From Bacteroidota bacterium (GTDB taxonomy: Bacteria; Bacteroidota; Bacteroidia; Flavobacteriales_F; PHOS-HE28): a DNA stretch of 32,652 bases. The notes below the pieces were generated by a model. The model was not told where the DNA came from and searched no databases. It saw only the letters and a list, made by a program, of their open reading frames with translations. A program made the position numbers and the translations under genes. The DNA is taken from contig JACTMO010000065.1 of assembly GCA_014584605.1 (NCBI GenBank), positions 1 through 32,652 of the forward strand, given 5' to 3'. Shown here one piece after another: positions 2-32,652 of the stretch. Within the stretch, counting starts at the first letter, position 1, and the number at the start of each line of letters is the position of its first letter.

Positions 2-196
2 GATTTCAAGAACGCGATGGCCGAGAAGCGCAAGAACGCTATCGGCGAAGGGCTGCCAATCATTCGTGGCGTGATTGCCACGGAACTCGATAAGGTGCTG
101 CCAACCAAAACAGATGCCGTGATTGATGAGACCGGCAAGCAGCAATGCTCGGCAGTCTTTTTGCGCGTAGCGGCAGCATTGGAGGCTTTGCGATGA
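2..196 (+). CDS. 3' end of an unrecognised gene, cut by the left edge
   Basis: An open frame enters from the left edge and ends at a TGA at 194-196. The visible 64 residues are mixed charged and hydrophobic and end in an alanine- and leucine-rich helix (FLRVAAALEALR). I do not recognise the family. It overlaps the next gene by ATGA, which suggests one translationally coupled operon. Codon use (GAT, AAA, CAA, GAA) and the strong Shine-Dalgarno site for the next gene, inside this gene's end, match the rest of the left segment and not the GC-rich Bacteroidota sequence that starts near 2,225. It is probably a phage or other mobile-element gene, but that is inference from its neighbours. Confidence 0.55.
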   Translation, partial: DFKNAMAEKRKNAIGEGLPIIRGVIATELDKVLPTKTDAVIDETGKQQCSAVFLRVAAALEALR

Positions 197-1191: not shown

Positions 1192-1596
1192 ATGCAATGG
1201 ACGAAAGATGACGTAAAATCGGCAGCAACAACGATTGGCAAACTTGGCGGCTTATTAGCCAAGCTCACGCCGACCCAGGTGGATGATCAAATCATCGCGA
1301 TCATTGCCAAGATCGGCGACAACGATCAGGCATGCGAAGCGGTTGCGGCCATGCTGAATATCTTTTTCAGCAGCATGCCGACGCCGCCCGCACCCGTGCC
1401 GCATGCCGTCGGTTCGATGGAAGCGCAATTCGATTATGGTGCCCTGGATTTCGGCAGCAGGCTGGACCGCATCAAGGAATGGTGTGCGAAACATGGGAAA
1501 GAATTTGGTGCCATTCCCGTGTGGATTTTGCCGCTGTTGCTTTCCGTTCCGTGGGATCGCGTGATTGGGTATTTAATCAGTCTGTTCAGTCGGTAG
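1192..1596 (+). CDS. small hypothetical protein with hydrophobic C-terminus
   Basis: 134 residues, family not recognised. The start at 1192 has a strong Shine-Dalgarno site (CTGGAGG, 6 nt upstream), as in the preceding gene 24 nt away, so the two probably share a transcript. The N-terminal half is predicted helical (residues 1-60). A proline-rich hinge (SMPTPPAPVP) follows, and the last 30 residues form a hydrophobic stretch (IPVWILPLLLSVP, then VIGYLISLFS) that could be one membrane segment. Its position after a peptidase in a phage-like block would suit a holin-like or virion-associated role, but no motif supports that directly. Confidence 0.6.
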   Translation: MQWTKDDVKSAATTIGKLGGLLAKLTPTQVDDQIIAIIAKIGDNDQACEAVAAMLNIFFSSMPTPPAPVPHAVGSMEAQFDYGALDFGSRLDRIKEWCAKHGKEFGAIPVWILPLLLSVPWDRVIGYLISLFSR

Positions 1597-1755: not shown

Positions 1756-3576
1756 ATGCGAATCCTGCATACACTTTTGTTCATGACGCATCTATCAGGC
1801 TTTGTGATGCAGCAGCCCGACCGCGATCGCATGCTCTGGCTTTGGGCGGTCGCGAAAGCCGAAGCTGAAGCTACAAGCAAACCAGAACCGAAGCCCGATC
1901 CAAAGCCCGGACCGGTCGTTGAATCGCTGCCAAAACTCAAGCATGGCGACGTTGGCCGCGTGTTTGTCACGGGAGCCGAGACCGCTCAATCGGTACGGCT
2001 TGGATCGGATGAATACGGCTGGGCCATCCTGACCAGATTGCCAAGTGGCGAATGGCACGCTGACATCAGCCATCTCGATAAGGGCAAGCATTACTACGGC
2101 TGGATTGCGGTAACGGAGAATGGCCGGGAGATCCGTAAACGCATTGAATTTGTGGGCGGCACAAACTATCGAACGGCTGCTCCCAAGATCGAGCAACCAA
2201 CCTTGCAATACGATTATCCGTATGTGACGCCGTCGGGCGCCTTCAGCAAGCCGGTGGGCGGGGGCTTCTTCACCCTCTTCAACAGCGCTTACCAGGCCGA
2301 GTGGCGCACCCCCTTCGGCAGCATGGGCGAGATCACCGGCCTGGCCGACCTGCGCCTGCTCAACACCACCCAGGGCCGCTACGCCTACCTCACCGGCACC
2401 ACGGCGGGGCTGGCGGACCCGGCGCTCTTTCCCCTGGACGTGGTGGACCTGCCCGGCACGGCCGACTATTACCAAGGCACCCCCGGCGGCGGCCAGCGCG
2501 ATGCCTATGTGGCCCGCTTGAACCTGGACACCTACCAGATCGAATGGTGTACCTACTGGGGTGGCAATGGCCGCGAACTGGGGCTTGCCTTGGAGGTGAT
2601 GAGCAGCGAGGCCTTCGGCACCTTCATCTGGGTGGGAGGCACCACCCGCAGCACCAACCTCACCGCCGCCCAGCTGCCCGCCGGTGGACCCTTCGCCTTT
2701 CACCAGGATGTGCCCGGTGGCCAGGGCGATGGCTACCTGCTCAAGTTCGGCCACGGCAACAGCGCCCTGCTCTGGGGTAGCCTCTACGGCGGCGAGGGCC
2801 CCGATGCCGTGCTGGACCTGGAGGTGGACCCGGCCTGCAACGCAGGCGGCACCGGCTGCCGCCTGTACGCCACCGGGGAGACCGGCAGCGCCACCGGCAT
2901 CTGGCACGCCGGGGCGGGCACCCTGTACGATCAGCCCTTGCTAGGCACCTTCGGGGGCGACCGGCGCGATGCCTTCGTGCTGGTGGTGAACGGCGCCACC
3001 CAGGAGCCCATTTGGACCACCTACTGGGGCGGCATCCACGCCGATCGCGGCTGGGGCGTGGCCGCAAGCGTCACCGAGCTCTACCTGGCCGGCGGTGCCA
3101 TCAGCGACCAGTTGAGCTTTCCCCTGCGCGAGTTCGACCCCCTGAGCCCGCTGGACTGGTACGATGGCGACCTCACCAACAACCTGGGCGGTGGATATGG
3201 CTGGATCTCCACCAACAACACCCACTACTACAACCCCATCGACGACTTCTTCGCCATCGACCCGCATCCCGGCCACAGCCACGATGGCTTCATCTGCAGC
3301 TTCGGGCTCTCGCCCAACCTGAGCGTGTCCGAGACAGCCCCTGGGGACCAAGCCCCGTGGTTGATCCCCCTGGAGCCCGGCCGGTGGCGACTTCGGCTGC
3401 CGACAGGTTCGGTGGGCCAGTTGGCCGTGTGGGACGCGCAAGGCCGCTTGGTGCTGATGCAAAGCAATGCCCGTGACGGCCACGTGGTGGACCTGGCCGC
3501 AGCTGCACCAGGCGTGTATCTGGCGCGTTTGGAGGAAGCGAACGGTGCGGTGCGATCGGTTAAGGCCCTTCGGTGA
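1756..3576 (+). CDS. chimeric ORF: secreted Pro-rich protein N-terminus joined to T9SS beta-propeller
   Basis: This 606-residue frame appears to be two unrelated halves. Residues 1 to about 155 start after GAGAGG, carry a signal-like hydrophobic start, a proline-lysine linker (KPEPKPDPKPGP) and a small beta-rich domain, all with left-segment codon use. From about residue 157 the codons become strongly GC3-rich and the sequence becomes an SBBP-type beta-propeller with recurring blades (WCTYWGG, WGSLYGG, WTTYWGG). A T9SS sorting tail follows at residues 533-606 (PGRWRLRLPTG, GQLAVWDAQGRLVLMQ, APGVYLARLEE). The right half should be a surface or secreted protein exported by the Bacteroidota type IX system, with its true signal peptide missing. 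Frame continuity across the join could be chance (one in three). It overlaps the next gene as TGATG. Confidence 0.6.
   Translation: MRILHTLLFMTHLSGFVMQQPDRDRMLWLWAVAKAEAEATSKPEPKPDPKPGPVVESLPKLKHGDVGRVFVTGAETAQSVRLGSDEYGWAILTRLPSGEWHADISHLDKGKHYYGWIAVTENGREIRKRIEFVGGTNYRTAAPKIEQPTLQYDYPYVTPSGAFSKPVGGGFFTLFNSAYQAEWRTPFGSMGEITGLADLRLLNTTQGRYAYLTGTTAGLADPALFPLDVVDLPGTADYYQGTPGGGQRDAYVARLNLDTYQIEWCTYWGGNGRELGLALEVMSSEAFGTFIWVGGTTRSTNLTAAQLPAGGPFAFHQDVPGGQGDGYLLKFGHGNSALLWGSLYGGEGPDAVLDLEVDPACNAGGTGCRLYATGETGSATGIWHAGAGTLYDQPLLGTFGGDRRDAFVLVVNGATQEPIWTTYWGGIHADRGWGVAASVTELYLAGGAISDQLSFPLREFDPLSPLDWYDGDLTNNLGGGYGWISTNNTHYYNPIDDFFAIDPHPGHSHDGFICSFGLSPNLSVSETAPGDQAPWLIPLEPGRWRLRLPTGSVGQLAVWDAQGRLVLMQSNARDGHVVDLAAAAPGVYLARLEEANGAVRSVKALR
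2205..2250. other. probable assembly or recombination junction
   Basis: Base composition, codon choice, Shine-Dalgarno use and protein family all change within about 40 bases. To the left are AT-tolerant codons (CAA, GAT, TAT, AAA); from about 2,235 almost every third base is G or C. The protein turns from a small domain behind a proline linker into a T9SS beta-propeller without its expected signal peptide. No inverted repeat, att-like direct repeat, tRNA or integrase lies at the join. The best reading is a chimeric contig, with a true insertion edge as the alternative. Confidence 0.6.
3352..3576 (+). repeat. direct repeat copy 1, encodes a T9SS sorting tail
   Basis: 225 bp (74 codons plus stop) that aligns without gaps to 4797-5021. 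By hand I count about 14 mismatches (about 94% identity), most at third codon positions, with only two residue changes (Ser to Val and Ala to Val). The similarity stops abruptly upstream of the APWLIPLEPG motif. Confidence 0.9.
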
Positions 3577-5021
3577 TGAGGAGCGCCAGGACCTTGGCGG
3601 TGCTGCTGATGTGCGGCACCGGAGCGGCGGGCATGGGGCAGTACTGGGCACCCTTGCAGCCCTTGGCAAAGCTGCACTCGCAGGTGAATGTGGTTTACGG
3701 GGACAGTGTGTGGGATAAGCTCTTAGTTGGCGGCAATTTCAAGTGGGCGGTGGTGGGGTCTGATTCGATCTACACCGCTGGTGCTGCCATGTGGGATGGA
3801 GCTGCATGGTCAGCGCTACCTGAGCCGGTCGGTCTCTGTGGAAGCGGGAATGGTTGTCACCCGATCTGGGAGTTCATGCGTGTAGACGGTCAACTGCACG
3901 TCAACGGTGCCTTCGTGTTCCTTGATGCGGACTCCATATACACCGAGTCCTTTGCCCGGTGGAACGAGCAGACCAACGGGTGGGAGCGCCTGCCCTGCGT
4001 GAACCCCGGGGTGGGCGGCATGGCCACCCTGGTGCCGCACTTTCCGCAGGACACCATGTACCTCACCGGTTACCGGGGCACCCTGTGCGGCTACGACAGC
4101 AGCTGCGTGTTCGCTTACGTGGGCGATACCATCGTGCCCAGCCCCTACCGGGCGCCGGTGCTGCACCACGGGCCCACCAGCTACGTGGGCTTCGCCTTTA
4201 AGTACCAGGGTGTGCCCTACATCACCGGTCTGTTCTTCGACCCCCTGCAAGGGCAGCACTACAGCTTCATGCGCTGGAACGGCGCGGCCTGGGAGGCTGT
4301 GCCAGGGTGGAGCACCCTGGACCCGATCAAGGACGTGCTGATCAAGGACGGCTGGCTGTATGTGTGCGGGTGGTTCTTCGAGGCGGGCGGAGCGCCGGGC
4401 AACATGGTGGCGCGCTTCAACGGAACGCAGTGGCAGACCTTGGGCAGTGGGCTCCTGGCGGCGCTGCCCGCAAGCACGCAAGGCGTGGCGCTGGACCTGC
4501 ACGCGTGGAACGGCGACCTGTATGTGGCCGGGCAGTTCAACTACGCCGGCGGTGTGCCGGCGGAGAACGCCGCGCGCTGGGACGGCAGCCGCTGGTGCGG
4601 CCTGGGGGGCAGCTATGCCATGCAAACCCCGGGTGGCAAAGCGAACGGGTTCACCGTGTGGCGCGATGAGCTGTACATGTCAGGCGGCTTCGTCACCATC
4701 GACGGCGACACCCTGTGGCACGTGGCGCGGTGGCTGGGCCAGGTGGAGAACTGCAGCGCCCCGGTGGCGGTGATGGAAGCGGCGGAGGATGACGAGGCCC
4801 CCTGGTTGATCCCTCTGGAGCCCGGGCGGTGGCGGCTTCGGCTGCCGACAGGTGTGGTGGGCCAGTTGGCCGTGTGGGACGCGCAAGGCCGCCTGGTGCT
4901 GATGCAAAGCAATGCCCGCGACGGCCACGTGGTGGACCTGGCCGTAGCTGCACCGGGCGTGTATCTGGCGCGTTTGGAGGAAGCGAACGGTGCGGTGCGG
5001 TCGGTAAAGGCCCTGCGATGA
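3576..5021 (+). CDS. T9SS-sorted secreted beta-propeller (kelch-like) protein
   Basis: 481 residues. The ATG at 3576 shares its A with the preceding TGA (TGATG), so the genes are translationally coupled; a GTG one codon earlier is also possible. There is a short signal peptide (RTLAVLLMCGTGAAG). The body has recurring motifs where a tryptophan in a W(D/N)G turn is followed by W and G, such as ARFNGTQWQTLG and ARWDGSRWCGLGG. These suit a beta-propeller like those in Bacteroidota proteins that report narrative strings. The last 74 residues are a T9SS sorting domain nearly identical to that of the preceding gene. Predicted to be secreted or surface-bound; ligand or enzyme activity unknown. Confidence 0.8.
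   Translation: MRSARTLAVLLMCGTGAAGMGQYWAPLQPLAKLHSQVNVVYGDSVWDKLLVGGNFKWAVVGSDSIYTAGAAMWDGAAWSALPEPVGLCGSGNGCHPIWEFMRVDGQLHVNGAFVFLDADSIYTESFARWNEQTNGWERLPCVNPGVGGMATLVPHFPQDTMYLTGYRGTLCGYDSSCVFAYVGDTIVPSPYRAPVLHHGPTSYVGFAFKYQGVPYITGLFFDPLQGQHYSFMRWNGAAWEAVPGWSTLDPIKDVLIKDGWLYVCGWFFEAGGAPGNMVARFNGTQWQTLGSGLLAALPASTQGVALDLHAWNGDLYVAGQFNYAGGVPAENAARWDGSRWCGLGGSYAMQTPGGKANGFTVWRDELYMSGGFVTIDGDTLWHVARWLGQVENCSAPVAVMEAAEDDEAPWLIPLEPGRWRLRLPTGVVGQLAVWDAQGRLVLMQSNARDGHVVDLAVAAPGVYLARLEEANGAVRSVKALR
4797..5021 (+). repeat. direct repeat copy 2, encodes a T9SS sorting tail
   Basis: Partner of 3352-3576, same length, ending at the same stop codon. The two host genes do not resemble each other upstream of the repeat. 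This points to tail-only duplication or ongoing gene conversion rather than whole-gene duplication. Confidence 0.9.
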
Positions 5022-30286: not shown

Positions 30287-30339
30287 GGGGGAGCTTCGGG
30301 GAGGTGATGGCGTGATCTGCCGGTCAGCCCAGAGCGACG

Positions 30340-31566
30340 CTAGGTCTGAGCCAGACACTCGGCGAAGAAGGTTGACACTTGCCCCTCATCAATTGCACCC
30401 CTGTCGTCAAATGGCAACAAGAATTTGACCTCACAGCCATGGTCGGTTTGATGCCAGCCTTCCTTGTGGTTGACATAGCGGCCGCGCACAGAGCGTGACT
30501 TGCCGGGATAGAGCAGCACGCTCCGTTCACAAACGAACCGGATGTTGTAGGTGAACATCTGCCGTAGATCCTCGATCGATGGTTCATCGTCGTCAGGCAC
30601 CTTCCACTTGGTGTCACCAATGAGCCGTATGCGACCGCCTTGCATGAACACGAGATCGGGTCGCACTGTTCGCTTCTCCCAGAGAGCTTCCTCCTCCTGC
30701 TCTTCAATGGTCCAACCTTCGGGGCACCTCTTGGCCAGCAAGCGATGAATGAACCGTTCCCAGAGTTTTTCCATGTCGAACAGGATGCTCAGAACATTCT
30801 CACCACCCGAGCGCAGGTCAGGATTGTAGTTCAGAATGATCAAACGAGCCAAACGAAGGGCCCCGTCGTACACGGCTGTCTTTCGATCAAGGTGTACGCG
30901 GTCGAAGGTGGAAGCATCGATGCCTCGGGTTTGCACGTGCTCAAAAGCCCATTTCACATCCTGGGCGCCGCCGACGATCACCGCGTTCGTACATGTGCGT
31001 TCCACGATGTCCAACGCCTTCTTCAGAATGCTGTGGAGCAAGTGGTCCGTGTCATAGGCTTGATGCACCACGGCGAAACGTTCACGATGCACGATGTTCG
31101 CTCTCAAATGATCCGGGAAGTCGAGCCGACCTTTGAGCGCGTGTTGAACAGAGTGCTTCGGATGGTATCGTTTGACCAGCCCGGCATGCACTAAAGACCG
31201 CACTTCCTTAACGTACGCATCCAGGAAGAGGTCCATAAGGTTCGTACGGCGCAATGCGAGGTCCGCTTTGTCCACCGTGTGCAGCTTCAGACCATTTGCG
31301 ACGCGAAGCATGGTGAGTAGAGCGTTGTGCCAGCGGTCGTAGTTCTCATCGGCGCGATCCGCCTTGGGCAGGATCTCGACCACCAAGTTCCCCACCTGCA
31401 CTACGCCGACGAACTGCTTGCATCGCAGGCGCCGATGCTCTGTCTCGAAGAAGCGGTTCCTATTGCGTTGATTCCATAACACGAGGGCAGTGAATTCCGC
31501 TTCGGACAAGCTGGGCTTGCCGATCTCGATCAACTCCCGCTCGTACCGTCTGATCAGCCTAGTCAT
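30340..31566 (-). CDS. mcrC: McrC, nuclease subunit of an McrBC restriction system
   Basis: 408 residues from ATG 31566, which overlaps the mcrB end by 8 bp (ATGACTAG). McrC is the nuclease partner that joins the McrB GTPase ring to cut modified, usually 5-methylcytosine-containing, DNA. The N-terminal beta-rich part (FVGVVQVGNLVVEILPKA) is typical. The C-terminal PD-(D/E)xK nuclease shows RPDLVF with Asp304 and GDTKWK with Asp318 and Lys320, preceded by FDMEKLWERFIHRLL, a family hallmark. The active site looks intact. GC content is visibly lower than that of the flanking genes, as expected for a transferred defence island. A longer start at 31587 is possible but gains nothing. Confidence 0.94.
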   Translation of the reverse strand: MTRLIRRYERELIEIGKPSLSEAEFTALVLWNQRNRNRFFETEHRRLRCKQFVGVVQVGNLVVEILPKADRADENYDRWHNALLTMLRVANGLKLHTVDKADLALRRTNLMDLFLDAYVKEVRSLVHAGLVKRYHPKHSVQHALKGRLDFPDHLRANIVHRERFAVVHQAYDTDHLLHSILKKALDIVERTCTNAVIVGGAQDVKWAFEHVQTRGIDASTFDRVHLDRKTAVYDGALRLARLIILNYNPDLRSGGENVLSILFDMEKLWERFIHRLLAKRCPEGWTIEEQEEEALWEKRTVRPDLVFMQGGRIRLIGDTKWKVPDDDEPSIEDLRQMFTYNIRFVCERSVLLYPGKSRSVRGRYVNHKEGWHQTDHGCEVKFLLPFDDRGAIDEGQVSTFFAECLAQT

Positions 31567-32652
31567 AGAGCTCCGCGAAAGCATCAAGACCTACATCCAT
31601 GGGGTCGGAAACATCGAACACATCCTTGCCTGCATCGTCGATGTCGAACTTGCCGTAGAGCTTATGCGTGCTCGCTTCGCGCTTCTTCACCCAATGAGGA
31701 CCAAGAACAGCACCCAGCTTGCGCGGGTCGCCGTAGAAGTACTCCTGCAACAATGGCAGCACCTTGTTCTTGAAGACCAGACGTAGTTCCCATTCCGGAT
31801 CGGCGGCGGCATGGATGTCCATGAAGTAGCTGTGGCCGATGTGATGGTCCTTGTCCAGTAAGCGCTCGATCCTACCATTGATAGCGGCCAACAAGGGTTG
31901 CAACTTCACGGCGAAGCCATCGGGTTGTTGCACGAGCTCCGGACGGCTGGGCATCTCCACGAAGCTAAAGCGGCGGCGCAGTGCGGTGTCCAGTGCTTCC
32001 ACACTACGGTCGGCGGTGTTCATGGTGCCGACCAGGAACAGATTTGAGGGTACACCGAACTCGCGATCCTTGCTGTACGGCAGTTTCACCGATAGCTGCT
32101 CAGGAGCACCTATTCGCTTTTCTGGTTCAAGGAGTGTAATGAGTTCGCCAAAGATCCCAGAGACATTTCCACGGTTGATCTCATCAATTACGAGCACGTA
32201 GCGCTGTTGTTCCACGGCTTGGTTTCTTGGTGGTGAGAGCTCCTTCATCCGCGATACAACTCCTGGGTAGTAGACACCCAGGCCGCCCGACTTTGGCTCC
32301 ATTCGACCATAGTAGATCTCTTGTAACGTCCGCCTGCTCAAGGTATGCTGCTCGCCACCGCTGGCTTTCTTGAACCGGATGGAACTTTCAGTAAAGCCGA
32401 TGATCTTGAACTCGTAACCGGGTGTCTTTGTCGGGAAAGTCATCATCGGGTCTTCCTCCCACTTGTCATTCAGTTTGTCGAGTGCCTCAGTGAACGGCAC
32501 CAAGCCGGTAATGGGCTGCGATGATCCCAAGTAATTGTCCAAAGCTGCATCACACTGTAAGCACCCCCATTTTAGGCGCAGTGGTTTGTAAAGGTACTTC
32601 TGAGTGTGGTGGTGTTGTGGATGTCCTGTTGAACTGTGGGGAAGTCCGCGCG
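31559..32652 (-). CDS. mcrB: McrB, AAA+ GTPase subunit, 5'-truncated by the window edge
   Basis: The frame runs open from the right edge to TAG at 31559. No stop occurs upstream of a TTG at 32542, so that TTG need not be the start. McrB hydrolyses GTP and drives the McrC nuclease. Visible motifs are the Walker B (YVLVIDEINRGNVSGIFGEL, about 32,150-32,200), sensor 1 (FLVGTMNTADRS) and the arginine cluster (ALDTALRRRFSF). Before them lies a roughly 100-residue insert with SGGEQHTLSRRTLQEIY, a variation I recall from other McrB-type ATPases. The Walker A loop, the signature GTPase region and the DNA-binding N-terminus are not visible and should lie beyond the edge. The last 70 or so bases before the edge do not look family-like. 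Confidence 0.85.
   Translation of the reverse strand, partial: RGLPHSSTGHPQHHHTQKYLYKPLRLKWGCLQCDAALDNYLGSSQPITGLVPFTEALDKLNDKWEEDPMMTFPTKTPGYEFKIIGFTESSIRFKKASGGEQHTLSRRTLQEIYYGRMEPKSGGLGVYYPGVVSRMKELSPPRNQAVEQQRYVLVIDEINRGNVSGIFGELITLLEPEKRIGAPEQLSVKLPYSKDREFGVPSNLFLVGTMNTADRSVEALDTALRRRFSFVEMPSRPELVQQPDGFAVKLQPLLAAINGRIERLLDKDHHIGHSYFMDIHAAADPEWELRLVFKNKVLPLLQEYFYGDPRKLGAVLGPHWVKKREASTHKLYGKFDIDDAGKDVFDVSDPMDVGLDAFAELYD

Follow-up and report, generated by a model that had tools for sequence, protein, structure and literature searches.

The DNA analysed here (the window) is a complete contig of 32,652 b, C5 of bin G000 (G000:C5), and it raises the question of whether a single open frame close to its start encodes a real protein. 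The ORF 1756-3576 on the + strand (606 codons, 606 aa) runs through an abrupt change in composition, and an earlier note had proposed that it joins in frame a phage-like segment and a Bacteroidota T9SS gene. The bin is made up of 89 contigs and is 99.91% complete with 0.09% contamination. Since the window spans the entire contig, the foreign DNA lies at one of its ends. The two halves of the frame are unrelated, they differ in their best relatives and in their composition, and both properties switch at one point at this contig end. We consider it probable that contig C5 has a chimeric, misassembled end and that the 606-residue frame is an artefact. The features of the region are listed in Table 1.

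Table 1. Features at the start of contig C5 (positions in the window).
Feature	Position	Strand	Remarks
Foreign phage-like segment	1..2212	+	Contig end; GC ~0.54 vs host ~0.66-0.69
3' end of a gene cut by the contig end	2..196	+	Open at contig start
Papain-like cysteine-protease-like protein, 324 aa	193..1167	+	35-36% identity to L018/L019/L020
134-aa protein, hydrophobic C-terminal stretch	1192..1596	+	ORF; holin-like by eye only
Start (5' part) of a foreign gene; encodes N-terminal ~153 aa with a proline-rich linker	1756..2214	+	Without own stop codon
Junction, probably chimeric	2205..2245	.	Homology 2212-2217, codon usage 2218-2245; without inverted repeats
C-terminal half of DUF7948/SBBP-type T9SS cargo gene ("subfamily B")	2212..3576	+	N-terminal ~495 positions missing
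Adjacent T9SS cargo gene, Kelch/DUF5122-like propeller	3573..5021	+	Start may be ATG at 3576

The GC content is ~0.53-0.56 over positions 1-2250 and 0.68-0.69 from 2251 on. Similarly, GC3 is 0.596 in codons 1756-2210, compared with 0.871 in codons 2227-3573 and 0.894 in the other genes of C5. A two-state codon-usage model improved on an all-host model by 70.8 log units and on an all-left model by 135.7, and placed the switch with maximum likelihood at 2236 (2218-2245 within 2 log units). Homology to proteins of the same genus begins abruptly at D153/Y154, i.e., at nt 2212-2217. Taken together, the start of homology and the codon switch place the junction at ~2212-2220, which confirms, along with GC, the earlier claim of a switch within 2195-2260 crossed by a single open frame of 606 residues. 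Extending the T9SS homology upstream to ~2113, on the basis of a VGG...RT similarity, was ruled out, as residues 1-152 have no positive profile score and the codons there are left-like.

The right half was searched separately, with 449 residues against 58 genomes. Full-coverage matches were obtained, mostly in frames of about 933-1034 residues, and the family turned out to be widespread in the Bacteroidota genus to which the bin belongs, in agreement with the T9SS origin previously assigned to this side. Against a family profile built from 10 secreted proteins of the same genus (953 positions), residues ~150-606 fitted positions 494-952/953 with E ~1e-101, a homology over ~450 aa, while residues 1-152 alone gave no match (-4.8 bits, E 0.8). 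The N-terminal half of subfamily B, with its signal peptide and DUF7948, is not present in the left 152 aa. None of the homologues carries both halves in one gene: all those with a complete N half (10/10) possess a different one, with 480-578 residues preceding the first homologous column. These extra residues indicate that residues 153-606 represent the C-terminal half of the product of a longer gene, the initial ~1.5 kb of which is absent here. In comparison with DUF7948/SBBP-type T9SS cargo proteins of the genus (e.g., G008:C16, G010:C1), the right half is alike up to and including the TIGR04183-like end, whereas the N-terminal ~495 positions are here unrelated sequence. The tail, which the earlier note had found convincing, is recognisable as a type A sorting domain (TIGR04183, E 1.5e-4), but its 21.7 bits remain just under the curated cut-off of 23. 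Also, the GC contents of the two halves of the homologous genes are mostly within 0.05 of each other; these genes are thus near-uniform in GC and the 606-aa frame is not, which we counted in favor of a chimera.

These data bear directly on the idea of a native gene, either a real fusion or a divergent T9SS N-terminus of unusual composition, expressed as 606 aa. Such a gene would account for a frame that stays open across the join and for the short VGG...RT similarity just upstream of it. However, the first 152 residues score negatively with the family profile, codon usage changes together with homology, the genes upstream are foreign as well, and this N half is found in no homologue. A native fusion gene is therefore nearly excluded.

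The bin was then searched with the N half of a homologue. One good candidate was obtained, a truncated DUF7948 gene (E 2e-34) at the very end of contig C72 of the same bin and in the correct direction (L034:13688-14848, a 398-codon frame). It was rejected as the missing half because it terminates at a stop codon of its own, 58 b short of the contig end, because its GC is ~0.55 compared with 0.68, and because it falls in the tree outside subfamily B, the group that includes all true homologues (100/100). The end of C72 is possibly another broken contig end. The search of the 99.9%-complete bin thus recovered no matching N-terminal half of the T9SS gene; such a half should have been detectable, since even this distant paralogue scored E 2e-34.

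The left segment (1-2212) has no match elsewhere in the bin. Under a tetranucleotide model of the host, only 4/265 pieces of the genome itself score lower than this segment, and phage contig G068 gives a better fit to its tetranucleotides than the host does. When phages, plasmids and viral contigs were searched for relatives of its genes, the sole find was a phage relative for the papain-like gene; the product of 2..196 had no curated family match, and no relatives were found for the 1192..1596 protein or for the part at 1756..2214. The relative of the papain-like gene (L018:4977-5909) occurs on two viral contigs and on one genome contig; the genome contig and one of the viral contigs are a single record. 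No other distinct relative turned up in the viral and genome collections. The putative catalytic residues C88, H250 and N271 are invariant between the two proteins in a 2-row alignment, a PDB search gave a weak match to dionain-1 (E 0.09), and there was no Pfam match. Judged from its sequence, the product looks like a papain-like (C1) cysteine protease, with a putative triad. The larger contig carrying the relative encodes a terminase large subunit (TerL; phrog_979, E 2e-74) and a major head protein (phrog_29, E 5e-15), and is thus a true phage; the phage-like character attributed to the left side is upheld by this separate search, in which the only relative lies on that contig. The phage contig IMGVR_UViG_2710723518_000006 (= MGYJ01000055.1) resembles the left segment in bearing a relative (35%) of the papain-like protein, but no relative of the gene starting at 1756 was found there and its GC is 0.59, compared with ~0.54. 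Within the genus, the 193-1167 gene is missing from 44 other genomes, with the exception of one match at E 6e-4 limited to 113 residues inside a 4279-residue frame, and a further 394 genomes sampled from the phylum lack it too.

A foreign segment of phage-like nature may also reflect a real mobile-element event, in which the T9SS gene was interrupted or partly deleted by a phage, or by an element derived from one, and the assembly broke inside the element. Contig breaks in this bin often coincide with low-GC DNA, and contigs left out of the bin could carry both the missing N half and the remainder of the phage. Also, the genome G024 is rearranged in the neighboring gene (IS30-like fragment, residue 151), and because of this rearrangement the locus may be a hotspot. 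Nevertheless, no integrase, transposase or inverted repeat was seen at the join, no tRNA was found on C5 (the test for integrase, att repeat and tRNA covered the one boundary of C5), and the phage gene is cut too, not the host gene alone. After a simple phage insertion the T9SS N-terminal half should survive elsewhere, but it was not recovered from the bin. The terminase of the reference phage likewise has no relative in the bin, where the wider terminase family is represented by one weak match (132 positions, phrog_2) in C66. We thus regard a real event of this kind as unlikely. That phage DNA replaced the 5' half of the cargo gene to give an in-frame fusion, putatively exported by the T9SS, appears very improbable.

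The right-half gene and its neighbor at 3573..5021 are paired also in G008 and G010. The ends of these two T9SS genes (window 3346-3576 vs 4791-5021) are 93% identical in DNA over 231 bases and their bodies are unlike, a pattern that we attribute to a sorting tail recently duplicated or homogenised by gene conversion. In the closest relative (G024:C51, L021:8802-10386), an in-frame fusion at residue ~151 links the second T9SS gene to the N-terminal portion of an IS30-like transposase (HTH_38); the breakpoint corresponds to window 4022. This fusion reflects either an IS-mediated deletion or a second chimera at almost the position of the one considered here. This sister genome was set aside as an intact reference, as the gene is not beside its neighbor there and the next gene carries the IS30-like fragment.

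Other contig ends of the bin were also considered. Falls in GC at contig ends are common in G000, and the start of C5 ranks 2 among 83 contig ends for GC drop. Some of the low-GC ends are probably real mobile DNA. The end of G000:C15 (L113), with GC 0.35 over the last 250 bases and 0.45 over the last 1 kb for a genome of ~0.67, is a further foreign or mobile contig end. At the opposite end of C5 (window 30300-32652), where GC goes down to ~0.55, we observed McrC and a McrB-like AAA gene; the McrB-like gene abuts the contig end and may be incomplete. Among the contigs sampled, the starts of G000:C32 and C39 (L087, L094) share an exact 77-base overlap in reverse complement, which suggests a short-read de Bruijn assembly with k=77.

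Contigs with chimeric ends have been reported from a mock community (PMC8172020), and it is well established that MAGs can contain chimeras as well as local assembly errors (PMC7111523). The start of C5 resembles these chimeric ends of short-read metagenome contigs in its foreign sequence at one end, its abrupt switch of composition and homology, and its truncated genes on either side; a difference is that no repeat common to both sides, through which a k=77 assembly could have joined them, could be shown at the break. We infer that an assembly error, and not a real insertion, produced the join. In a misassembly, a short phage fragment originating from a different replicon of the sample would have been joined by the assembler to host sequence at ~2212-2220. 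The join would cut the phage gene starting at 1756, which would lose its 3' end, as well as the T9SS cargo gene, which would lose its 5' ~1.5 kb. The two truncated genes would then share a frame by chance, so that gene callers report one 606-aa protein; as this is a 1-in-3 event for two randomly joined coding sequences, the open frame needs no explanation. No new biological mechanism is needed for the observations on C5, and it is probable that the 606-residue protein, as the earlier note had suspected, never exists.

As an artefact, this locus would be a matter of annotation hygiene: in a very clean MAG (99.9% complete, 0.09% contamination), the open frame at a contig end would nonetheless yield a plausible but false fusion protein. 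A chimeric contig end of this type is invisible to marker-gene statistics. We advise cutting the first ~2.2 kb off contig C5 and leaving the 606-residue product unannotated. If the join were true, it would represent an unusual gene fusion between phage and host.
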